DNA of 37,668 bases from positions 1-37,668 of the forward strand of contig JAURFH010000013.1 of the NCBI GenBank assembly GCA_030834415.1. The letters are read 5' to 3'. Origin of the DNA: Verrucomicrobiota bacterium. Its GTDB lineage: Bacteria > Verrucomicrobiota > Verrucomicrobiia > Limisphaerales > JAEYXS01. Each line of letters begins with the position of its first letter. Positions within the stretch are counted from its first letter, which is position 1. Shown piece after piece: positions 19,637-30,951 of the stretch. The notes under the pieces were generated by a model. It was not told the origin of the DNA and ran no database searches. It saw nothing but the letters and a program-made list of their open reading frames with translations. A program made the position numbers and the translations under genes.

Positions 19637-20260
19637 TTACTTCTTATCAGGCATGGCCATGAGTTCCGATGGAGCCCAAGGCGTGCTACGTGCACCTTCC
19701 TTCTCCGAAATCTTTTTCACCTCGGCCTCGGTCACAATCGAGCCTTTGTTACCCCAAGCATTACGGATGTAGCTAAGTGCATCGGCGATTTCCTTGTCCG
19801 TCAAAACACCTTTCCAAGGAGGCATCGCACCGTTGTAAGCCGTACCACTTACCGTGATCGGACCGGCGACACCATGCAGAACCAGGCGGATAAGCCGCTC
19901 GTGGCCTTCTGTCTGCACCCAATCAGATCCGGCCAACGGAGGAAACTGGCCGGGAACGCCAGCACCGCTGCCCTGATGGCAAGCGATACAGCCCTTGTTC
20001 TCGTAAACCTTCTTGCCATCCTTGATCGGATCAGGACCACCCGCACCCGGTTGGATGTTTTCAACTACCTTGTAAGAAGGATACGGCTCGTAAACTTCTT
20101 TGTTAAATCCACCGGCGCGATCCGCCAAAAAACCCATGCCCAAATAACACAGGAGACCGGCGATCACCATGACCAACACCGGAAAACGGTCTTTCTTCAC
20201 CGTAGGTTCCGGCGTTTCGGCAACTGGCTTGCTTGGCTTCTGTTTTTTACGGTCACTCAT
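19637..20260 (-). CDS. membrane-anchored monoheme cytochrome c
   Basis: The 207-residue protein has a Lys/Pro-rich cytoplasmic N-terminus, one membrane span (about 27-47) and a periplasmic cytochrome c domain. It has a single haem site Cys91-Ile-Ala-Cys-His95 and an axial Met candidate in Gly-Ala-Met-Pro-Pro-Trp (Met146). The phrases Pro-Pro-Leu-Ala-Gly-Ser-Asp-Trp-Val and Leu-Thr-Asp-Lys-Glu-Ile-Ala-Asp-Ala are typical of class I cytochromes in oxidase operons. It is last in the operon and overlaps the CcoO-like gene by 4 bp, occupying the position of CcoP, but it has one haem where CcoP has two. It probably carries electrons to or from the cbb3-like module. Confidence 0.88.
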   Translation of the reverse strand: MSDRKKQKPSKPVAETPEPTVKKDRFPVLVMVIAGLLCYLGMGFLADRAGGFNKEVYEPYPSYKVVENIQPGAGGPDPIKDGKKVYENKGCIACHQGSGAGVPGQFPPLAGSDWVQTEGHERLIRLVLHGVAGPITVSGTAYNGAMPPWKGVLTDKEIADALSYIRNAWGNKGSIVTEAEVKKISEKEGARSTPWAPSELMAMPDKK

Positions 20261-21162
20261 GGCTTGGTCACCGCAGACGCGGCATTCACCACATTCGTTG
20301 CGGCTGCAGGATCTTCTTTCTTGGGCTCGGGCTTCATCGGTGCCTCGAATACGGCCGCGTTGGACTTCAGGCTGAGCAGGTAGGCCACCAAGGCTTTGGC
20401 CTCGGGCTTCGGTACCACTTCGTAACCTGCCGGGGCAATGGCTGCAGGCAGCTTCAGGGCGTCAGGCGAAGGCGTGCGGCCAATCGGACGCTTCTCAAAG
20501 AGATACGTGTAAGAAGGCATCTTGGAGCCCTCCACCTCAGTAGTTGGTGCATAGAGGTGATTCAAGTGCCACGCCGCATCCGGACGACGCAGACCGATAG
20601 CAGTCAAATCAGGACCGATGCGCTGCTCACCCAGCATCACTGTGCGCTCAAAGAGGTAATCGTTCGCCACGGTGCGGCGGGCACCCCAGCCACGATTCAA
20701 ATCGGCTCCGAGTGCGATGACCTGCATCTCGAACTTCGCGCCAGCATCCTTAAGCTTATCGACCGTTTTCTTGGTCTCTTCGAAATTGGCACCGCTAAGC
20801 ACGGGCTTGGGCAGTTGCTTTAACAGTTGCTTCACCGCTTTGTCACCAAACCGAGGATTGGCCTGCAAAACGATTTTCGCCACTTCGTTGGTCTTCTCAC
20901 CCATTTCCATCAATATGACGTCAAACTGGACGCCACTCTGACGAACTTGCTGGCTATGGCAGTAGTAGCAACCTTGCTGGCGATAGACCTCCGCGCCTTG
21001 TTGGGCTACACCCGGCTTAGCTGCAGGATACAAGCCACCACTAACTTCCGCAGGCACCGGTTTGAGCTCTCCGACCTGTATCTGGGGCACGAAAATCATG
21101 CCGAACCAGGAAGTGACCAAGGTCACAAAGACACCTAAAAATACGAGGGGGCCTTGGTTCAT
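20257..21162 (-). CDS. cbb3-type oxidase subunit II (CcoO-like) with an L7/L12-like insertion
   Basis: A membrane anchor (about 5-25) precedes a periplasmic monoheme domain with Cys65-Tyr-Tyr-Cys-His69-Ser-Gln, the classic CcoO/FixO haem motif. The axial Met lies in Gly-Ser-Lys-Met-Pro-Ser-Tyr. Pro-Asp-Leu and the His-Leu-Asn-His-Leu segment also match the family. The protein is 301 residues, well above the roughly 200-240 usual for CcoO. The excess comes from two parts: a Pro/Ala/Lys tail, and about 70 residues (79-147) inserted just after the haem motif. By eye that insertion resembles the C-terminal domain of ribosomal protein L7/L12 (Phe-Asp-Val-Ile-Leu, then Leu-Pro-Lys-Pro-Val, then Ala-Gly-Ala-Lys). 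It overlaps its neighbours by 4 bp on each side. Confidence 0.88.
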   Translation of the reverse strand: MNQGPLVFLGVFVTLVTSWFGMIFVPQIQVGELKPVPAEVSGGLYPAAKPGVAQQGAEVYRQQGCYYCHSQQVRQSGVQFDVILMEMGEKTNEVAKIVLQANPRFGDKAVKQLLKQLPKPVLSGANFEETKKTVDKLKDAGAKFEMQVIALGADLNRGWGARRTVANDYLFERTVMLGEQRIGPDLTAIGLRRPDAAWHLNHLYAPTTEVEGSKMPSYTYLFEKRPIGRTPSPDALKLPAAIAPAGYEVVPKPEAKALVAYLLSLKSNAAVFEAPMKPEPKKEDPAAATNVVNAASAVTKP

Positions 21163-22610
21163 ACGGTTGCCTCCCGGGTTTTGCTCTTCTTGGAATCAGT
21201 CACACAACCCAAGACCAGTGGCTTGACCAAATGGTAGACGAGCATTTTCACATTACCCAATAGCAGCAGACTGCCAGCCAGCCAGGCCAAGTCGCCAAGA
21301 ATTGAGATATACAAAAACTTCATGCTGGCGGAAGAGACATCCATGAATCCGGTGTCTGATGCCAGCAAGGCTCCTTGTTGAGCTCCTCCGAGCGCAAGAG
21401 GCAGGACAAGTAACAAAACACCAGTAATGCCAAGCAGGAAATGAAACTTCAAGGCGCTGGCAAAAGGCCATTCCACACCCGCCACCCGGGGCAGGATATA
21501 GTAAATACCGCCCAGCAAGACCAGCGAGGCGAATCCCAGCAGCATCAGCTTATCAACAGCTACCGTAAAGAAAGTGAAGTGCAGGATATCACTGACTTGG
21601 GGAATCGCTCCAAATGCCTGGATAACAATACCCGCGAAGAAAGCCACGGCACCCGCCAACACAAACTTCATCGTCACACTGGAATTGAATGCCGAGTAGT
21701 CATCTTCCAAAGTCCAGTGGAGGTTGAGCACAAAAGCCAGCGCTGGACCGATCAGCATGAACGCCATGACCGTGCTCAAGGCAGGCAACCAAGCCGGCAC
21801 CGGCATACCATGGTGCATGCCGCCCATGCCGCCAAAAATCAGGAGGAACCAGAAGGTGAGGAGCGCGTAGTTGCTGCTGGCCAGCGGCTTGGCCGAAATC
21901 TTCGGCACAAAGTAGAAAACCGCCGCGATGCCGATGCTGCCGAGCCAGACGGTCACCAGATTATGGGCATACCATTGATGGACGATGGATTGCATGACAC
22001 CCACTGCCGGGTACCAGTGGATGAGGGCCACCGCCGTGGCATAGATCCAAGGAAACCAGAACAAGGCCGCCAACAGGAACCATTGGGAAGGATACAGCTC
22101 CGTCGTCTTGCGCTCGGCAAAAGTGAAACCGCCGACCGCCCCCATCAAGAGGTAACCAGCCAGCAAAACCGGAGCCGCATACTTCGGGAACTCGAACCAT
22201 TCGTATCCGGAACCATCACCGAGGAAAATCCCGATCAGCCCCAGCGTCACGCCGAGGTTCCAGAAAATGGCACCTACCGCCGCAAAGCCGCCTTGGACCA
22301 AAGTGGTCTTGCCGAGACGGGCGATGAGCCAGAGCATCACGCCGATGGCAGCCTGAGCGATGAAACCGTAAAGCAAGGTGTTGAAGGCACCCGCCTGCAC
22401 ATGGCCGTAAGTGAAGAACGGGCAATCCGCCAGCAACGCCGCGCTATGAAACTTCAACGAAGCGATGAAGCTCAAGATGGCGCTGACGATCAGCCAGGCA
22501 GCCGAACTGCCAAAGATCACCAGCAGCGGGATACGGCACGAAGCATCGATCTGCTGCGGAGTCACCTCCGGGGCAGCCGTAGCTTCAGTGTTGGTAGGGG
22601 CCGAACTCAT
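21159..22610 (-). CDS. CcoN-like haem-copper oxidase subunit I lacking key haem ligands
   Basis: This 483-residue protein has twelve or so spans and aligns by eye with cbb3 oxidase subunit I. Kept are the TM2 haem-b ligand His70 (Tyr-Gly-His), the CuB-type His216 (Trp-Tyr-Ala-His-Asn) and His266-His267. The TM10 motif, normally Thr-x-Gly-His-x-His, reads Thr-Val-Ala-Val-Asp-Lys (349-354), so the haem b3 ligand and the second low-spin haem b ligand are replaced by Val352 and Lys354. The position of the cross-linked Tyr, six residues before the His pair, is Gly260. Flanking segments (Leu-His-Phe-Thr before; Ile-Tyr-Tyr-Ile-Leu-Pro-Arg after) align well, so this is not a frameshift. The protein is intact and in an operon. 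It probably does not reduce oxygen in the usual way. Confidence 0.85.
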   Translation of the reverse strand: MSSAPTNTEATAAPEVTPQQIDASCRIPLLVIFGSSAAWLIVSAILSFIASLKFHSAALLADCPFFTYGHVQAGAFNTLLYGFIAQAAIGVMLWLIARLGKTTLVQGGFAAVGAIFWNLGVTLGLIGIFLGDGSGYEWFEFPKYAAPVLLAGYLLMGAVGGFTFAERKTTELYPSQWFLLAALFWFPWIYATAVALIHWYPAVGVMQSIVHQWYAHNLVTVWLGSIGIAAVFYFVPKISAKPLASSNYALLTFWFLLIFGGMGGMHHGMPVPAWLPALSTVMAFMLIGPALAFVLNLHWTLEDDYSAFNSSVTMKFVLAGAVAFFAGIVIQAFGAIPQVSDILHFTFFTVAVDKLMLLGFASLVLLGGIYYILPRVAGVEWPFASALKFHFLLGITGVLLLVLPLALGGAQQGALLASDTGFMDVSSASMKFLYISILGDLAWLAGSLLLLGNVKMLVYHLVKPLVLGCVTDSKKSKTREATV

Positions 22611-22634: not shown

Positions 22635-23015
22635 TCACTCGAACGCGCTCGGGGCTTCCGGGGCTTTCGGCGGGGGCTCATTGAGCTTCTCCAGACGCTT
22701 CACCATCTCGGCGTGGGCCGCCTTGGGATTCTGGTATTCGGCCAAGGTCAGTTCCATGGCGCGATCCATCGGCAAACGGACAAAACCCTTGTCCTTGTTC
22801 TGCCAAGCGTACTCCGCCAAAACCTTGTTCTCCTCGGCGCGCAGTTCCTTCAGGTTCTTCACGCGCTCTGCAGCCCGGGCAGCCGTCAGGTCAGGGGTGG
22901 TGGTGTAGTTACGCATCACCTGGATGAACCCGTAGGTGATGAGGAACGTGCCGGCAATGCCGACGAACCAGGCGATATATTTCGGTTTGCAACCGCAGCA
23001 GTTAGATTCGCTCAT
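22635..23015 (-). CDS. small membrane protein of the ACIII operon
   Basis: The 126-residue protein opens with Cys6-Cys7-x-Cys9, has one span (about 13-33), and carries a soluble helical domain. A central phrase, Tyr-Ala-Trp-Gln-Asn-Lys-Asp-Lys-Gly-Phe-Val-Arg-Leu-Pro-Met-Asp-Arg-Ala-Met-Glu, resembles a short motif (Val-Arg-Ile-Pro-Ile-Asp-Arg-Ala-Met) that I associate with small proteins encoded beside Alternative Complex III and cytochrome oxidases. The C-terminus is Pro-rich. It lies between actF (15 bp) and the CcoN-like gene (24 bp), exactly at the junction of the two modules. It could be an accessory subunit or assembly factor linking them; this is inference. No cofactor motif other than the N-terminal cysteines is visible. 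Confidence 0.8.
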   Translation of the reverse strand: MSESNCCGCKPKYIAWFVGIAGTFLITYGFIQVMRNYTTTPDLTAARAAERVKNLKELRAEENKVLAEYAWQNKDKGFVRLPMDRAMELTLAEYQNPKAAHAEMVKRLEKLNEPPPKAPEAPSAFE

Positions 23016-23030: not shown

Positions 23031-24287
23031 TTATTTGGCTCCTGCCAGTTTGGAGGAAGCCGGGGGCACATAAATGTCCAAGGCTTCGGCGATGCGGGGA
23101 TCCTTCTGCGGGATCACCGGATGTGCATTCAGCGATTTGACGAAATAGTTCACCAGCATGCCGACCATGAACAACAGCACGCCGATATCCATCAGTTGCG
23201 GCATGAAGCCGTGCGGACGCAACACCGGCTGGATGAGGAACGTCACGTCCAGATAGTGCATCAGCCAGGCCCAAGCGATGATCGGGGTCATCCACCAGAC
23301 CTTCAGCTTCAGGTCGATGCGCAGCAATGCAAGGAACGGGATGAAGAAGTGGCCGAAGATCAGCAGCACACTCAACCCGAACCAAGAACCCTGTTCACGC
23401 CAGACAAAGTAGAAGGTCTCTTCCGGGATGTTGGCGTTCCAGATGATGAAATACTGGGAGAACGTGATGTACGCCCAGAACACCGTGAAGGCGAACAGCA
23501 GGGAACCGAGGAAGTAGAACGTCTTTTCCTTGGCGAAACCTTGCAGCGGTCCCTGACGCTTGAGGATCAAGGCGACCAGATAGGTCGTAGCGATGCTCAC
23601 CCAGGTCGTACCCGCAAAATATTGCACACCGAACATGGTGGAGAAGAACTCGATCTGCAGGGACTTCACCCACATGATGATGGCAATCGTCACTGTGATC
23701 GCGAACAACCAGATGCCACCGCAAGCGAAGGCTCGCATCTTCTTGGTGCATTCTGCCGAACCTGTCTCGTCTTGTTTCAAGGACCAGTAACGCAGGCGAT
23801 TCGCCAGCAAGAACCAAGTTCCCAAAGCGATCAAGCTGACCACGATGAAACCACCCTTGGTCGCGAGTACACCCTTGGCTTCCACCGCATGGCTATGGTG
23901 GCTCATCCACTCATACAAGGTGCCCGTTCCCGGTCCGAGAATCAGGATCGGGATGAACAGCAGCGCTATCGGACCAGCCATGCTGGCCAACGCTTCCGTG
24001 ATACGACGGGTAGGCACCGACCAACTCGCATCAAACAAGTGATGCAGGATGGTGAGGAACAGACCGCCGAGCATGAAGCTCAGGCAGAAAATGAAAGCCG
24101 TCAGCCAGGAAAAGCCGAACTGACGCCCCAACGAGATCGCATGTTCACCGTCATGCTTGATCATCATGGAGGCGAGCGCGCCGACAACTGCGAGGCCGAT
24201 ACCGGCGAACATCAGCTTGGTCGGCAAAGTCCGCCACTTGGACAGGTCCAGTGGAGCTTCGGTAGGAGTGGTCTTGTGCGAAGCCAT
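23031..24287 (-). CDS. actF: Alternative Complex III membrane subunit ActF
   Basis: ActF is a ten-span membrane subunit of Alternative Complex III, the bc1-unrelated quinol:cytochrome c oxidoreductase. The 418-residue protein shows about ten hydrophobic segments and family-typical phrases: Phe-Ser-Trp-Leu-Thr-Ala-Phe with Leu-His-His-Leu-Phe-Asp-Ala-Ser-Trp-Ser in the second and third spans, Tyr-Ile-Thr-Phe-Ser-Gln-Tyr-Phe-Ile-Ile-Trp-Asn-Ala-Asn-Ile-Pro-Glu-Glu, and Trp-Leu-Met-His-Tyr-Leu-Asp. It is distantly related to the NrfD-like ActC and sits beside it in the complex. Order in the operon (after actE, 4 bp gap) is as in other ACIII clusters. Length and topology are normal. Confidence 0.92.
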   Translation of the reverse strand: MASHKTTPTEAPLDLSKWRTLPTKLMFAGIGLAVVGALASMMIKHDGEHAISLGRQFGFSWLTAFIFCLSFMLGGLFLTILHHLFDASWSVPTRRITEALASMAGPIALLFIPILILGPGTGTLYEWMSHHSHAVEAKGVLATKGGFIVVSLIALGTWFLLANRLRYWSLKQDETGSAECTKKMRAFACGGIWLFAITVTIAIIMWVKSLQIEFFSTMFGVQYFAGTTWVSIATTYLVALILKRQGPLQGFAKEKTFYFLGSLLFAFTVFWAYITFSQYFIIWNANIPEETFYFVWREQGSWFGLSVLLIFGHFFIPFLALLRIDLKLKVWWMTPIIAWAWLMHYLDVTFLIQPVLRPHGFMPQLMDIGVLLFMVGMLVNYFVKSLNAHPVIPQKDPRIAEALDIYVPPASSKLAGAK

Positions 24288-24291
24288 AAAA

Positions 24292-24906
24292 TTATTTGTT
24301 CAACACGGCGCGGTTCGGAGCCGGCACGTCGTCAATGGTTGCAAGGCGGCTGCGTTGCAGGGCGCGGATATAGGCGATGATCGCCCAGCGGTCCTCGATC
24401 TCCACGTTCGCACCATAGCTGCCCATCAGGTTTTTACCGTGAGTGATGGTGTTAAAGATCTCACCATCCGTCATGGACACCAGACGCAGGTCATGGAAAT
24501 TGGCCACAGCCACCATGTTATACTTCGTCGTGATGCCCTTGCCATCGCCCACCTTGCCGTGGCAAGGAGCGCAATTGATATCATAGCGCTGATGACCGCG
24601 GGCCATCAGTTCCTTCGTGACCGGCACCGGGATGAACGCTACAAAGTTCGTCGAGCCCGGGATACGGCCGGTGTTCACTTCATTGTCTGCATAGTGGGAG
24701 CCACGAGCGACCGTGCCATCCACCTTGAGCTGGGAGCTCTTACCATCAGCAAAGAAGTCATTACCCGCCTGCGGACGCAGCTTCGGCTGACGGTCCATGT
24801 CAGGGATGATCTCGATCGGCGGCTTAAGGGACTTATCCCCCTGCCGGCCGGCGATCAGGCAGACCGAGGCCACCGCCAGAATTAGGAAACCCAAAAAGTA
24901 TTTCAT
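24292..24906 (-). CDS. actE: Alternative Complex III monoheme cytochrome c subunit ActE
   Basis: ActE is the monoheme cytochrome c of Alternative Complex III and sits on its periplasmic face near ActA. The 204-residue protein has an N-terminal hydrophobic segment (about 3-20), one haem motif Cys112-Ala-Pro-Cys-His116 followed by Gly-Lys-Val-Gly-Asp-Gly-Lys-Gly, and the family phrase Asp-Met-Asp-Arg-Gln-Pro-Lys-Leu-Arg-Pro-Gln. Axial Met candidates lie in the Lys-Asn-Leu-Met-Gly-Ser-Tyr segment. ActE homologues are often lipoproteins, but here Leu-Ile-Ala-Gly is followed by Arg21, not Cys. Cys16 is preceded by Val, a poor lipobox. GGAGG lies upstream, inside the end of actD. Confidence 0.92.
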   Translation of the reverse strand: MKYFLGFLILAVASVCLIAGRQGDKSLKPPIEIIPDMDRQPKLRPQAGNDFFADGKSSQLKVDGTVARGSHYADNEVNTGRIPGSTNFVAFIPVPVTKELMARGHQRYDINCAPCHGKVGDGKGITTKYNMVAVANFHDLRLVSMTDGEIFNTITHGKNLMGSYGANVEIEDRWAIIAYIRALQRSRLATIDDVPAPNRAVLNK

Positions 24907-24909
24907 CGC

Positions 24910-25446
24910 TTATTCCTCCACGAGTTCGATGCGTTTGCTGCCGGCCGCTTCCAGCAACTCGCGGGTTTCTTTCGGTGAATACTTCGGATCGGCGGTCTCG
25001 ATCACGATGAAATATTTGTCATGAGTCACCAGCTTGAAGCGGTCATGCTTCAACAGCGGGTGATGCAGACGCGGCAGGCGGTTCAGGAACAGCATGCCCA
25101 ACAGCGCGCCAAAGGCGCCGAAAAGAATCGTCAACTCGTAGGACGGCGGGAAAGCGCCGAAAGGGCTGAACATCGGCTTGCCGCCGATCATCACCTTGTA
25201 ATCCACCGCGTTGGTGAACCAGATGAGCAGCATGCCGCTCGTGTAACCGGTGACACCACCGATGAACGAAAACCAGCCGACCTTCGAATTCTTCAGGCCC
25301 ATGGCTTCATCCATGCCGTGGATCGGATACGGCGTGTGCACGTCCCAGACCTTGTATCCGGCATCGCGCACCTTCTCGGCGGCGTGCATGACATCGGCCG
25401 GTTTATCAAACTCGGCCAAGAGGCCGTATGGTTTGCTAGCTGACAT
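24910..25446 (-). CDS. actD: Alternative Complex III subunit ActD (DUF3341)
   Basis: The 178-residue protein matches the DUF3341 family, the two-span ActD subunit of Alternative Complex III. It starts with Tyr-Gly-Leu-Leu-Ala-Glu-Phe and has the typical motif Val-Trp-Asp-Val-His-Thr-Pro-Tyr-Pro-Ile-His-Gly-Met-Asp. Two membrane hairpin segments follow (about 57-80 and 104-122), the second containing Pro-Ser-Tyr-Glu-Leu-Thr. The C-terminal Arg-Leu-His-His-Pro and Asp-Lys-Tyr-Phe-Ile-Val-Ile-Glu sequences are also typical. It carries no cofactor motif; in the known complex it packs against ActC. The start overlaps the actC stop by one base, and GGAGG lies nine bases upstream. Confidence 0.95.
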   Translation of the reverse strand: MSASKPYGLLAEFDKPADVMHAAEKVRDAGYKVWDVHTPYPIHGMDEAMGLKNSKVGWFSFIGGVTGYTSGMLLIWFTNAVDYKVMIGGKPMFSPFGAFPPSYELTILFGAFGALLGMLFLNRLPRLHHPLLKHDRFKLVTHDKYFIVIETADPKYSPKETRELLEAAGSKRIELVEE

Positions 25447-26876
25447 TAATGATGTCCTCCGTCTTTGGCACCACCCAGCGGATGGTGCGGGTCTGCCTGC
25501 GGGGTGATGGCTTTCACTTCACAGATGGCAATCATCGGGATGAAGCGCATGAACAGCAGGAACAGGGTAAAGAACTGACCGAACGTACCGAGATACATCA
25601 GGATGTCCACCCAGGTCGGGGAATACCAACCCCAGTTCGCCGGGAGGAAATCGCGGTGCAGCGACGTCACGATGATGACGAAACGCTCGAACCACATGCC
25701 GATGTTCACAATGAGTGACAGGATGAAGATGACCTTCAGATTGCTCCGGAACCATTTGAACCAGAACAACTGCGGGATGATGACGTTCGGCAGGAACATC
25801 CAGAGGTAACCCCAGTAGTAAGGACCGGAGATACGATTCAGGAATGCATAACGCTCAAACGGGCTGCCGCTATACCAGGCGATGAACAGCTCCATGATGT
25901 AGGCGTAACCGACGATGGAACCCGTCGCCAAGATGACTTTGCACATCAGGTCGATGTGGCGCATCGTGATGATGTCTTCCAGCTTGCACAACGTGCGCAG
26001 CGGGATGAGCAACGTCAGCACCATGCCGAAACCGGAGAACACGGCACCAGCCACGAAGTAAGGCGGGAAGATCGTCGTATGCCAGCCCGGGAGCTGCGAA
26101 ACGGCGAAGTCCAAAGACACGATGGAGTGCACGGAAAGCACCAGCGGTGTCGAGAGACCGGCCAGCAAGAGGTAGGCTTTCTCGTAGTTGCTCCAGTGGC
26201 GGTTGGAACCAGTCCAGCCGAAGGAGAAGATACCGTAAGCGAACTTGCGGAGCTTGGTCTTGGCCCGATCGCGCATGACCGCGAGGTCAGGGATCAAACC
26301 CATGAACCAGAACAACACGGAAACCGTGAAGTAAGTGGAGACGGCGAACACGTCCCACATCAGCGGTGAACGGAACTGCGGCCAGATGGCGTTCGAGTTC
26401 GGGATGGGGAACAGGTACCAATCGTACCAGATACGACCGACGTGCAAGGCCGGATAGATACCGGCACACATCACGGCGAAGATGGTCATCGCCTCAGACG
26501 CACGGTTGATCGAAGTACGCCATTTCTGGCGCAACAGGAAGAGAATCGCGGAGATGAGCGTACCGGCATGACCGATACCGATCCACCACACGAAGTTGAT
26601 GATGTCCCAACCCCACATGACCGGGTGGCTGTTACCCCACACACCGACGCCCACGGAGATCTGGTACACGATCATCGCCCCCATCGCCCCGTAGAGGAGC
26701 AAGCTGGGGATCATCATGGCCCACCACCACCAAGGGGTCTTGCCCTCGATGACGGAAGCGACGCGGTCGGACAACCAACCGATGTCGCGGCCTTTATTGA
26801 CTAATACTTCGCGTTCCAGCTCCACCGGCGGAGCCTGGACTTTGAAATTAGCAGGAATCGCGGCTGCGTCTGACAT
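25446..26876 (-). CDS. actC: Alternative Complex III quinol-binding membrane subunit ActC (NrfD/PsrC family)
   Basis: ActC is the NrfD/PsrC-like membrane subunit where quinol is oxidised, next to the ActB iron-sulfur chain. The 476-residue protein has about ten spans after a 50-residue N-terminal tail. Characteristic phrases are [13 protein letters not shown], Tyr-Pro-Ala-Leu-His-Val-Gly-Arg, [11 protein letters not shown] and Asn-Ile-Gly-Met-Trp-Phe-Glu-Arg-Phe. Conserved Asp, His and Arg residues of this kind form the quinone pocket in the family. The C-terminus is His-rich. AAAGGAG lies upstream of the ATG, which overlaps the actB stop by one base. Length and order are normal for ACIII operons. 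Confidence 0.95.
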
Positions 26877-29800
26877 TAGTGCGCTCCTTTCTTGGTCTCT
26901 TCGGTCGTGGTCGCGTGCTCGGCATGGTCATGCCCGGCATGCTCCTCATGCCCGTGCGCCTCAAAACTGTTGTGTTTATTCAACCATTCCTGGGATGTCC
27001 CGGGGAATTCCTGATAGTCAGGCATGGCCTTGTTCTGGTTGCGGATGCGCGCCAGATACGTCGTGCGCGGCTTGGTCAGCAAGAAGTCCAGCACCGAGTA
27101 ATCGCGGTCCATGGCCTTCCACTTGGAGACTTCGCTGTTCGGGTCCTTGATGTTACCGAACGCGATCGCATCTGCCGGGCAAGCCTGCTGGCAAGCGGTC
27201 TTGATGGTCCCATCGGGCACGGCCACGTTATCCGTGTCACGCGCCTTGACCTTCTGGGCGATCTTCGCGCCTTCGATACGCTGTACGCAGAAGGAGCACT
27301 TCTCCATCACACCGCGCATACGCACACTGACATCCGGATTCTTCGCCAGCTTGAGGAGTTCCCACTCCTCATCCTCACGCCAACCGCGCTCTGGGCTCTT
27401 CCACCAACGGGACATGGCCCATTCGCCATTCACCGTGGCCGTGAGCGGCGTGCGGTAGTGCGGTCCGACCAAGTCATTGAGCGGACGCTTGTTGTAATCG
27501 AGATAGTTGAAGCGGCGGACCTTATACGGGCAGTTGTTCGAGCAGTAGCGAGTGCCGACGCAACGGTTGTAGGCCATGACATTCAGGCCTTCTTCGTCGT
27601 GAGCAGTCGCATTCACCGGGCAAACGTTTTCGCACGGTGCCGCCTCGCAATGCTGGCAAAGCATCGGCTGGAAGGCGATCTGCGGGTTCAACAAATCACC
27701 CGCGAAATAACGGTCCATGCGGATCCAGGACATTTCACGTCCACGGCGCACTTGGTCCTTGCCGACAATGGGAACATTGTTCTCGCTTTGGCAGGCGACC
27801 AAGCAAGCGGTGCAACCCACACACGCGCTGAGGTCGATGGCCATGCCCCACTGATGAACGGCCTTGTCCTTCCACGCATCCAACGGATTCGCGTAGAGCG
27901 AAGGAGCTTCCGTCACACCCTTTTCCTTCAGCGCCGGGGAAACCGGAGCCGGGTGCAAGTTCATCAAAGTGGCGAAATCCGGCTGCTTCTTGTACTGATC
28001 CAAGTTCGCTTCGCGGATGATCGAGCGACCCTCCATCACGCCGTGTTCCTGCGTGCTGGCCACCGGATAAGTCTCGGTCGTGCCGGTCAACTTCGCACCG
28101 GGAGCGATGTAAAGCGTCGAAGAAGTGCGCGCGACGTAAGCATTGAAGCCGGCCGGCGTATCCTTCTGGGATTTGGCAATGCGGCCAGCATCAGGACGGC
28201 CATAGCCGAGCTCCAAAGCGACCACGTTGTCGGCCATACCCGGCACGATCCAGATCGGACCCTTGACCGTCTTGCCGTTGACCGAAACTTCAACCACTTG
28301 GTTGTCGAAACGTCCATGAGAGGCCGAAGGCGTCTGGGAAATCTCTTTCTCACCGCTGACCCAACCAGCCAGGCCCAGCGCATTGTTTTCGTTGAAGCGA
28401 CCCACGCCCAAAGCCTTGGCCGTTTCCGGGCTCACGATGATGACGTTGTCCCAAGTCACCTTGGTGATCGGGTTCGGCGTCTCCTGCAGCCAGCCGTTGT
28501 TCGCAAAGCGACCGTCATCCAAGCTGTAGCTACGATGGAAAACCACTTCAAGCGCGTTCTGACTCGGAGCCGGAAGCACTTTCGCACCCTTCAGCGCGGC
28601 GGCGATGCCGGTGCTGAGCGTGACCGTGACCGACTTGGCCGAACTGCCAGCGAGGTAACCGTCATGCAGGAACTTGCGCCACGCATTCTCATCACCACCG
28701 TCAAGGGCGGAGAAGGTTTCACGGACGATATCGTAAGGATTGGTCTTCGACTGACCGCCGATGCGGGCGAGCACTTCGAGTTCCGTGACGCCGCCGAAAA
28801 GCGGCTGGATGAGCGGCTGCACGGGCACCAACGTGCCATCCGACGTGCGGGCATCACCCCAAGATTCCAAGTAATGCGCGAGCGGCAAGTGCCAGCCCTT
28901 CTTCACGAAAGATTCATCTTCCGTGTAGCCGAGGCGGATCACCGTACCCGCCTTGGCCTGCGCGGCTGCCCAACCCAGATCAGCGGGCGCATTGTAAACC
29001 GGATTGCCACCGAGGATGACCAACGTGGAAACATCACCCGCGTTCAAGGACGCGGCGAGTTCCTGGATGGTGCCCTTCACCGGCTCAACAGCCGGGAGGT
29101 AGTTGACCGTCGTGCCCACCGCACCAAGCGCGGCATTGAGCACATGCGCCATGAGGTGAACTTCCAGCGGCTGCTGGTAACCGGCCAAAACGAGGCTTTC
29201 TTTGCCACCGGCCACCAAATCCTTGGCGCACTCGGTGATCCACTTGTCATCCGCCTTGCCCTGCGAAGCGATCGGCTCCAAGGCCTGAACCACGGCGCTA
29301 TAACCCGACTTCTGGCTGAGGATCGCGACCGCGATCTTTGCTGCGATCGGCAAAACGTTGCTGGCCGCCGTGCGCATGCGATGATCCGCATTCGCACCCG
29401 TGAGGCTATACAGCGCCTCAACCGCATACAGACGGTTCATGTCATCATGAGCCGTCTTGGTCTTGCGATTCTTCGTGAAGCCATGGATCAACGCGCAGGC
29501 GTCCTGCTCGTTGCCGATGAAATCACAATCCAGCGAGAGAATGCGCTTGGCGGCACCCAACTGGTAATCCGGACGGACCGACTTACCGAACACCGTGGAA
29601 GCCGCTTGACGATGGATATCGAAATCAACCGGCTCGTAGATATACCACTTGGCCTGCGGCAACTTCGTGGAAATGGCTTTGATGAGACGGCTACGGGAAG
29701 GTGAGCTGCTGCGCTCCAACAGGAAGCTCAGACCAGCCCCCTTGGTCGCGGCCATATCAGCGCCCAACTTGTTCAGGGCGTCGAGAGCCACATTGCGATC

Positions 29801-30286
29801 CACGCCGGCACCATCCTTGGTGAAGCGTTGAGCGCGATCGACATCATACAGATTCAGCAGGGAAGCTTGCGCGAACTGGTCCGTGCCGCCTTTGCTGCCG
29901 GGAATCTGGCTGTTACCTTCCACCTTGACCGGACGGCCTTCATGGGCACGTACCACCAAGGGGATCGCCGAACCGCGCGTCGGATAAGCCGAGGCGTAAA
30001 ATTGAGAGACACCGTGCGTGTAGTCCTCCGGCATCTTGGAGAACGGGAGGATATGCTCCTCGGGACGGCGGCAACCGGTCAGACCCACACCCGCCAGCAA
30101 GAACGAGGCGGACATGATCTTTACGAAGTTACGGCGGGAAACCGGGTCCACAAACTCGCTGGCACCTTCAGGAAACTCGCGCTCGAGCCACTGCCGGAAC
30201 TCCGGCGTGTCCTGCAACTGGTCCATACTGCGCCAGTATTGCTGGCCAGACTTCGGCTCCGTATGGGTAGGGGGAATTGTTTTCAT
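26876..30286 (-). CDS. actB: Alternative Complex III iron-sulfur subunit ActB (fused B1-B2)
   Basis: ActB joins a molybdopterin-enzyme-like domain without molybdopterin (about residues 90-780) to a four-cluster ferredoxin-like domain (about 810-1080). A Tat motif Ser-Arg51-Arg52-Asn-Phe-Val-Lys leads to the lipobox Leu-Thr-Gly-Cys72, so the mature protein should be a periplasmic lipoprotein. Iron-sulfur cysteines are at 822/825/828/832, 877/880/885/889, 909/915/919, 997/1000 and 1032/1036. These fifteen cysteines fit three [4Fe-4S] and one [3Fe-4S] cluster, as known for ACIII. The 1136 residues form a single uninterrupted polypeptide. The tail after 1108 is strikingly His-rich. It overlaps actA by 4 bp and actC by one base. 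It carries electrons from the ActC quinol site to the haems. Confidence 0.96.
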
Positions 30287-30951
30287 CGATGGCAGGTCGA
30301 GCAGCTTTGGGACGACTGCACGTTCATCTTATGGACCATTTCAAGACCGTAAGCCTCTTGCTTCGCAGCATTGGCCTTCGGGTCCTCGCTCCATTTCCAG
30401 TCCAAATCAGTGATATGCTCCAACGGCCGGATGGCCTTTTCCGGATTACGATGGCAATCCAGACAGAACGACATGCTCAGCGGCTTGGAGTGGTAAACCT
30501 CGTCCATGTGGTTGATCTGGCCGTGGCATTCCACGCAACTGACACCACGATTCACATGCACCGAGTGGTTGAAATAGACGTAATCTGGCACCTTGTGGAT
30601 CTGCACCCACGGGATGGGCTTGTTCTCATTGAAGCTGTCACGCACCACCTGCAGCTTCGGATCATCCTTCAGCACCTGATTGTGGCAGTTCATGCACAAG
30701 CTGGCAGCCGGGACATTCGAATACCAGGACTTCTCCACGCCGTTATGGCAGTAGCGGCAGTCCAACCCCAATTGATCTGCGTGAATCTTATGTGAAAAAG
30801 CCACCGGCTGCTTCGGCTGGTAGCCGACGCGCGTGTATTTCGGTGTGAAGTAGTACCACACACCGGCGGTGACCGCCGTGCCGACCAAGGATGCTCCCAC
30901 CACAATCAAGAGTGGCAGCTTATTGGTCCATTTAGGAAAAATGTCTGACAT
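30283..30951 (-). CDS. actA: Alternative Complex III pentaheme cytochrome c subunit ActA
   Basis: ActA is the multiheme cytochrome c of Alternative Complex III. The 222-residue protein has one membrane anchor (about 12-33) and five haem motifs: Cys65-x-x-Cys-His69, Cys86-His90, Cys139-His143, Cys163-His167 and Cys217-His221. The last lies one residue before the C-terminus. Extra histidines (Phe-Ser-His-Lys-Ile-His; Phe-Asn-His-Ser-Val-His; His-Met-Asp) are candidate distal ligands. Five haems is the number known for ActA. It is the first gene of the ten-gene respiratory operon, so the operon promoter should lie in the 465 bp upstream. No convincing Shine-Dalgarno sequence precedes its ATG. 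Confidence 0.95.
   Translation of the reverse strand: MSDIFPKWTNKLPLLIVVGASLVGTAVTAGVWYYFTPKYTRVGYQPKQPVAFSHKIHADQLGLDCRYCHNGVEKSWYSNVPAASLCMNCHNQVLKDDPKLQVVRDSFNENKPIPWVQIHKVPDYVYFNHSVHVNRGVSCVECHGQINHMDEVYHSKPLSMSFCLDCHRNPEKAIRPLEHITDLDWKWSEDPKANAAKQEAYGLEMVHKMNVQSSQSCSTCHR

Follow-up and report, generated by a model that had tools for sequence, protein, structure and literature searches.

An L7/L12 C-terminal-like domain inserted into a CcoO-like cytochrome c subunit encoded with Alternative Complex III in Limisphaerales

The window analysed here, a stretch of 37,668 nucleotides from a Verrucomicrobiota bacterium, carries on its minus strand the ActA-F gene set of Alternative Complex III (ACIII), directly followed by an oxidase-like module. 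ActA, a pentaheme cytochrome c with five CxxCH motifs (30283..30951; PF14522 29.8 bits at 30667-30804), precedes ActB (26876..30286), which combines molybdopterin-like and iron-sulfur ferredoxin domains, and the NrfD-like ActC (25446..26876), the last two being assigned from sequence and position. ActD (24910..25446; PF11821 E=8.7e-65) and an ActE-like monoheme cytochrome c (24292..24906; PF13442 E=7.9e-12) come next, and then a membrane subunit with no Pfam match (23031..24287) that is probably ActF-like, judging by its position, membrane character and conservation. Between this gene and the one for a CcoN-like subunit (21159..22610) lies orf126 (22635..23015), which encodes a small membrane-anchored protein with no Pfam family, conserved and always found in this position, and built of one helix followed by a soluble charged tail. 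The CcoO-like cytochrome c subunit (301 aa, 20257..21162) and a CcoP-like membrane-anchored monoheme cytochrome c (19637..20260; PF00034 E=3.4e-16) complete the cluster. Co-encoding with ACIII, as claimed in the original prediction, is upheld by the Act gene set directly upstream and by an order conserved over loci, ActB-C-D-E-F, orf126, CcoN, CcoO, CcoP being found wherever the contig was long enough, in the presence or absence of the insertion described below.

ACIII is linked to an oxidase in Rhodothermus and Flavobacterium. The same link has been described in Melioribacter (PMC5492636). In all three systems, as in the window, the Act genes are directly followed by an oxidase-like module, which in the window, however, is of a cbb3-like type without metal ligands, while an A-type oxidase of 604 aa, normal-looking and with HPEVY, HH and HxH motifs, is encoded elsewhere in the genome, on another contig.

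The CcoO-like protein matches FixO (PF02433 E=5.4e-20, 72.3 bits) in two stretches that flank an insertion, and falls short of the cut-off of the ccoO equivalog TIGR00781 (67 vs 200.65 bits). It shares with CcoO/FixO of cbb3 oxidases (3mk7_B, 8smr_F, 6xkw_o) the N-terminal anchor and the CxxCHSQ, GPDL and HLYxP...SxMPxY motifs, and differs from them in the 70-residue insertion, in its score below TIGR00781 and in having a partner CcoN without metal ligands. Because the alignment to insert-free homologues, which come from other Verrucomicrobiota, resumes at query residue 151 directly after residue 77, ungapped on the homologue side, the insertion can be placed at residues 78-150 (20713..20931, minus strand; junction 77|151), starting 9 residues past the heme-binding His; the L7/L12 C-terminal-domain-like part of it covers residues 80-146 (20725..20925, minus strand). 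The roughly 70 extra residues (79-147) that had been predicted to follow the CYYCH motif were therefore located correctly to within a few residues. The motif itself (residues 65-69; 20956..20970, minus strand) is retained: C65, C68 and H69, together with M215, never vary in 28 inserted homologues, so that heme c is presumably still used.

Homology of the insertion to the C-terminal domain of ribosomal protein L7/L12, which the original prediction had proposed from an alignment by eye, was borne out by profile searches and structure prediction alike. PF00542, whose curated cut-off is 25.9 bits, scored 28.9 bits (E=1.4e-6) against the whole CcoO-like protein and 32.8 bits against the isolated segment, and the segment alone, when searched with phmmer against solved structures, found bL12 as its top match (8rdw, E=3.9e-7). 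The alignment is, as predicted, ungapped from mid-domain to the end, with one single-residue gap earlier in the domain. Taken one at a time, 24 of the 28 related inserts also match PF00542 (E up to 1), and a profile built from all 28 retrieves bL12 from the PDB at E 1.8e-15 to 1e-3, no other family being significant in that search and the next unrelated match lying at 0.05. AlphaFold, given the insert alignment as input, predicted a beta-alpha-alpha-beta-alpha-beta fold with a pLDDT of 92 (E4-11 H16-26 H32-39 E44-50 H52-64 E68-74), and the insert was L12-like again in a model of the full-length protein. The best PDB matches of the insert model in Foldseek were L7/L12 (8yeq, E 4.1e-6; 3j9y, TM 0.94, 0.8 A). 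In fact, the insert and the bL12 C-terminal domain (1ctf, 8yeq, 3j9y) have the same fold (TM 0.88-0.94), the same order of elements, and the FDVxL start, APKPV and AGAKxE motifs in common, and differ in that the insert sits in a membrane-anchored cytochrome and not on the ribosome. The N-terminal dimerisation domain and hinge of bL12 are missing from it, and the CcoO-like protein reaches 26.6 of the 84.4 bits required by the bL12 equivalog TIGR00855. In our judgement, the insert is almost certainly a genuine, independently folding homologue of the L7/L12 C-terminal domain within a CcoO-like heme c subunit.

That an unrelated alpha/beta sandwich converged on the look of L7/L12 is barely credible: ClpS, an adaptor with the same general fold, and other similarly shaped folds do appear lower down the Foldseek list (TM about 0.6-0.7 for ClpS), but ClpS shows no significant sequence relation in the insert profile search, which, together with the PF00542 matches of single inserts, excludes chance or convergence as the origin of the match for the long forms of the insert. 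A shorter, 54-residue form gives no convincing bL12 match when used alone, and is tied to L12 only through its hhalign match with the long forms (E 9.8e-16). A recent fusion with the genome's own bL12, which is encoded at G000:C462, was likewise rejected, as a tree puts all 68 CcoO inserts together, across a split from the order's bL12s whose SH-aLRT is 90, weak since only 77 columns were available. In that tree the row L167, labelled as an insert, is a bL12, and one domain from outside CcoO (copy 1 of L265) lies beside the inserts.

Sequence conservation points to a domain that has kept its fold and lost most of its former binding face. Positions K65, I69, K70, R73, G77-L80, K84 and E88 are invariant in 30 bL12 proteins of the order. 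Five of these, K65, I69, K70, R73 and K84, which we take to be the residues that bind translation factors, are thus present in 100% of the bL12s, and in 20% or less of 68 inserts. What the inserts keep instead are P91 (97%), G62 (92%), L58 (85%), A103 (83%), K116 (79%) and G114 (77%), and it is because the residues invariant in bL12 are unconserved here, while fold-core positions are conserved, that we draw this conclusion. Loss of the factor-binding face appears to be a trend of the family, incomplete in the member found in the window, which of the factor-binding residues retains the equivalents of K70 and K84 only. In the ribosome, the bL12 C-terminal domain is the site shared by translation GTPases (PMC10931766).

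A search for the same insertion in other Verrucomicrobiota, suggested along with the original prediction, detected a CcoO match spanning the insert in at least 59 of 196 genomes sampled from the order, belonging to dozens of families; none was seen outside the order among 289 genomes sampled across the phylum. The order is Limisphaerales according to the named records, and taxon names of relatives are taken from record titles. Scanning of the GTDB species genomes yielded 134 relatives, of which 80 were kept, all of them with at least partial coverage of the profile's insert positions; their titles are mostly Verrucomicrobiota (many "subdivision 3", Limisphaerales or Pedosphaera), with a few unnamed or Akkermansia-labelled. 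Two bins titled Akkermansia muciniphila (L075 and L145) carry a Limisphaerales-type cluster, and their titles are probably wrong. Sampled genomes were mostly MAGs, and an assembly or binning error was considered and rejected, as the insert occurs in many independent genomes, including one that was amplified from a single cell (L081, KB911873) and one that is a complete chromosome (L137, OX638380). Being present order-wide, it is a real part of the protein and not an oddity of one genome. We found no prior description of an L12 domain in oxidases, of PF00542 in Verrucomicrobia, or of the CcoN ligands of ACIII-linked clusters in open-access full text, in agreement with the expectation that such a domain had gone undescribed in cbb3 subunits.

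Less can be said for the term "cytochrome c oxidase" that was originally applied to this complex. When aligned with CcoN of P. stutzeri (3mk7_A; E 3.3e-23), the CcoN-like neighbour reads A-H-G-H-H-V-K at H60, H207, Y251, H257, H258, H345 and H347, and hence lacks H60, H345 and H347, which we take to be the heme ligands, as well as Tyr251, presumably of the active site. The three histidines kept in this genus are of CuB type, the CuB ligands of CcoN being numbered 207, 257 and 258 (PMC3578206). Heme ligands are missing from the CcoN-like partner in 86 of 86 inserted loci where the neighbouring gene was readable, and of the six canonical histidines none is found in 70 of them, one in 13 and three in 3, three being the number in the window. 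Because the partner has lost its heme-copper ligands, the complex that contains it is very probably not an oxidase. CcoN-like subunits without heme ligands, like that of the window, were also seen in L012, L030 and L033-L037, and ligand-poor CcoN-like proteins (0-1 of 6 histidines) without an insert occur in 10 of 28 clusters from other orders, where they are the best CcoN matches and their assignment is putative.

The insert-free clusters of the order itself are mixed, with eight that have all six histidines and the Tyr, and many that are ligand-less. As many ligand-less clusters go without the insert, the latter is apparently not essential. On the core CcoO tree every insert belongs to one clade of 127 rows (SH-aLRT 96), and comparison of the two lists shows that the eight full-ligand clusters are not among its members. 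Because the inserts are nested inside a clade without a full-ligand CcoN, the simplest order of events is that the metal sites were lost and the domain was then gained.

Insert alleles do not follow the core tree. Insert lengths fall into classes of none (with 10-13 residues in a few rows), 54-57, 66-90 and 156 residues, the longest being a tandem pair of domains seen in two genomes and the 54-residue form missing one helix; in one 33-row clade the distribution of these classes on the core tree is patchy. A single gain followed by vertical inheritance only does not fit: keeping the 54-residue form monophyletic on the core tree costs 212 log-likelihood units and is rejected (p-AU 4e-67), the group tested having been named post hoc, from the tree itself. 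Sequence comparisons point in the same direction. In the sister genes of L103 and L129 the flanks are 81-85% identical in DNA and the insert 41% (third positions 64-68% vs 30%), and in L055 and L056 the values are 92-93% in the flanks and 65% in the insert. L126 has a core nearest to L103 (88%) and an insert nearest to L122 (76%; core 73%), and L136 and L112 are more alike in the insert (74%) than in the core (64%). Since third-position identity is similar in insert and flank for pairs of the same class, the excess divergence is not simply due to a higher mutation rate, and the plainest reading of these sequences is that insert alleles have probably been replaced by recombination between lineages. 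Presence and absence of the insert vary even inside one genus (L047 vs L187).

Based on these results, we tentatively propose, with a rough probability of 0.4, that the insert is a module for partner binding in the periplasm, exchangeable between lineages and carried by the subunit through which electrons leave ACIII. Judging by the CcoO family, in which a single N-terminal helix forms the anchor and heme c must be attached on the periplasmic side, it would be located in the periplasm. With CcoN probably unable to accept electrons any more, the hemes of CcoO and CcoP may serve as the outlet of ACIII to another acceptor, either the A-type oxidase from elsewhere in the genome or a soluble cytochrome c. 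The insert would then be a protein-binding appendage beside this outlet, recruiting or selecting a partner encoded outside the operon; partners that differ by lineage would account for the exchange of whole insert alleles, probably by recombination, in an operon that is otherwise vertically inherited.

The strongest rival to a partner-binding function is that the insert is a tolerated passenger, a self-folding and harmless domain that landed in a permissive surface loop after catalysis was lost, and that has since drifted, shortened, been lost and been exchanged. We regard this as possible, if on the doubtful side. Nesting of the insert in the ligand-less CcoN clade, which implies arrival after the loss of catalysis, agrees with it, as does the existence of a form lacking one helix. 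No other part of the protein is, moreover, as poorly conserved as the insert (27% mean pairwise identity, against 54% in the core), which would fit relaxed constraint too, and the core tree, based on 223 columns with moderate SH-aLRT values that do not reliably separate gain from loss, calls for at least 9 gain or loss changes, 4 of them forced by well-supported branches. A mere passenger, however, would not be expected to show the purifying selection seen between the closest pairs, where dN/dS stays under 1 (0.015 and 0.14, for example), nor to keep the fold-critical P, G, L and A mentioned above over dozens of families; furthermore, conservation is high within the 54-residue form (mean column identity 69%), and the reading frame is intact in all the inserted loci analysed.

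Docking of the CcoO subunit onto ACIII within a supercomplex, as originally suggested, is in our opinion unlikely. Inserted CcoO is always encoded directly downstream of ACIII, and in 18 inserted loci outside the clade in which inserts are swapped there is a residual coupling of the insert to CcoN, ActE, ActF and orf126 (partial r 0.31-0.41). Within the swapping clade, however, insert divergence, after correction for that of the core, shows no coupling to CcoN, orf126 or ActC-F (partial Mantel r -0.19 to 0.04), CcoP giving a partial Mantel r of 0.14 (p 0.09), and ACIII clusters without an insert are common. It is this lack of coupling to co-encoded subunits that leads us to prefer a partner outside the operon.

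It is also conceivable, if quite unlikely, that an antagonist directed at the respiratory complex, such as a toxin, a phage protein or a predator factor, puts pressure on the insert as an exposed hypervariable domain, and that allele exchange alters recognition by this enemy and not by a partner. Modular exchange of alleles between sister genes, and presence or absence inside a single genus, would agree with such a scenario. There is, however, no known antagonist, pairs of the same type show no synonymous excess, and their dN/dS stays below 1.

If the insert is indeed a partner-binding module, the exchanged inserts would provide a natural allele set for finding its binding target. A more ambitious and rather doubtful version of its history would have a ribosomal stalk domain captured once, moved from the cytoplasm to the periplasmic face of a respiratory complex already without its oxygen-reducing site, and turned into a polymorphic recognition module, the alleles of which recombine between species and match a single electron-exit complex to different partners or let it escape different enemies. 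In any case, it is unusual for a cytochrome of the periplasm to have captured a domain from a ribosomal protein. The ligand-less CcoN, for its part, points to a widespread ACIII-linked module which sequence families assign to cbb3-type oxidases and which is probably unable to reduce oxygen, and this bears on inferring microaerobic respiration in uncultured Verrucomicrobiota.

L12-like domains were also seen outside CcoO. A GntP-family permease (L178:5719-7326, minus strand; PF02447 E 9.5e-152) has an L7/L12 C-terminal domain between its halves (PF00542 31.5 bits), and the same permease insertion occurs at G465:C48:7379-8164; it was found in two genomes of one genus, has no counterpart in the corresponding region of a third, and represents a second insertion of this domain into a membrane protein within the same order. 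Uncharacterised proteins carry the domain at the C-terminus (L179:7211-8566, minus strand) or in two copies, one near each end (L265:1888-3075, plus strand), the latter gene lying directly downstream of a reverse-transcriptase-like ORF with a YFRYSDD motif (L265:250-1719, plus strand), and a TPR-like protein (L180:154-1554, plus strand) has an L12-like domain just under the PF00542 cut-off. In the genome of the window itself, a small membrane protein (L003:1228-1716, on G000:C319) contains, of the L12 domain, only the helical LGLKEAK part, in two copies (PF00542 54.9 bits in all) and also matches DUF6793, and similar partial matches are found in many genomes of the order.
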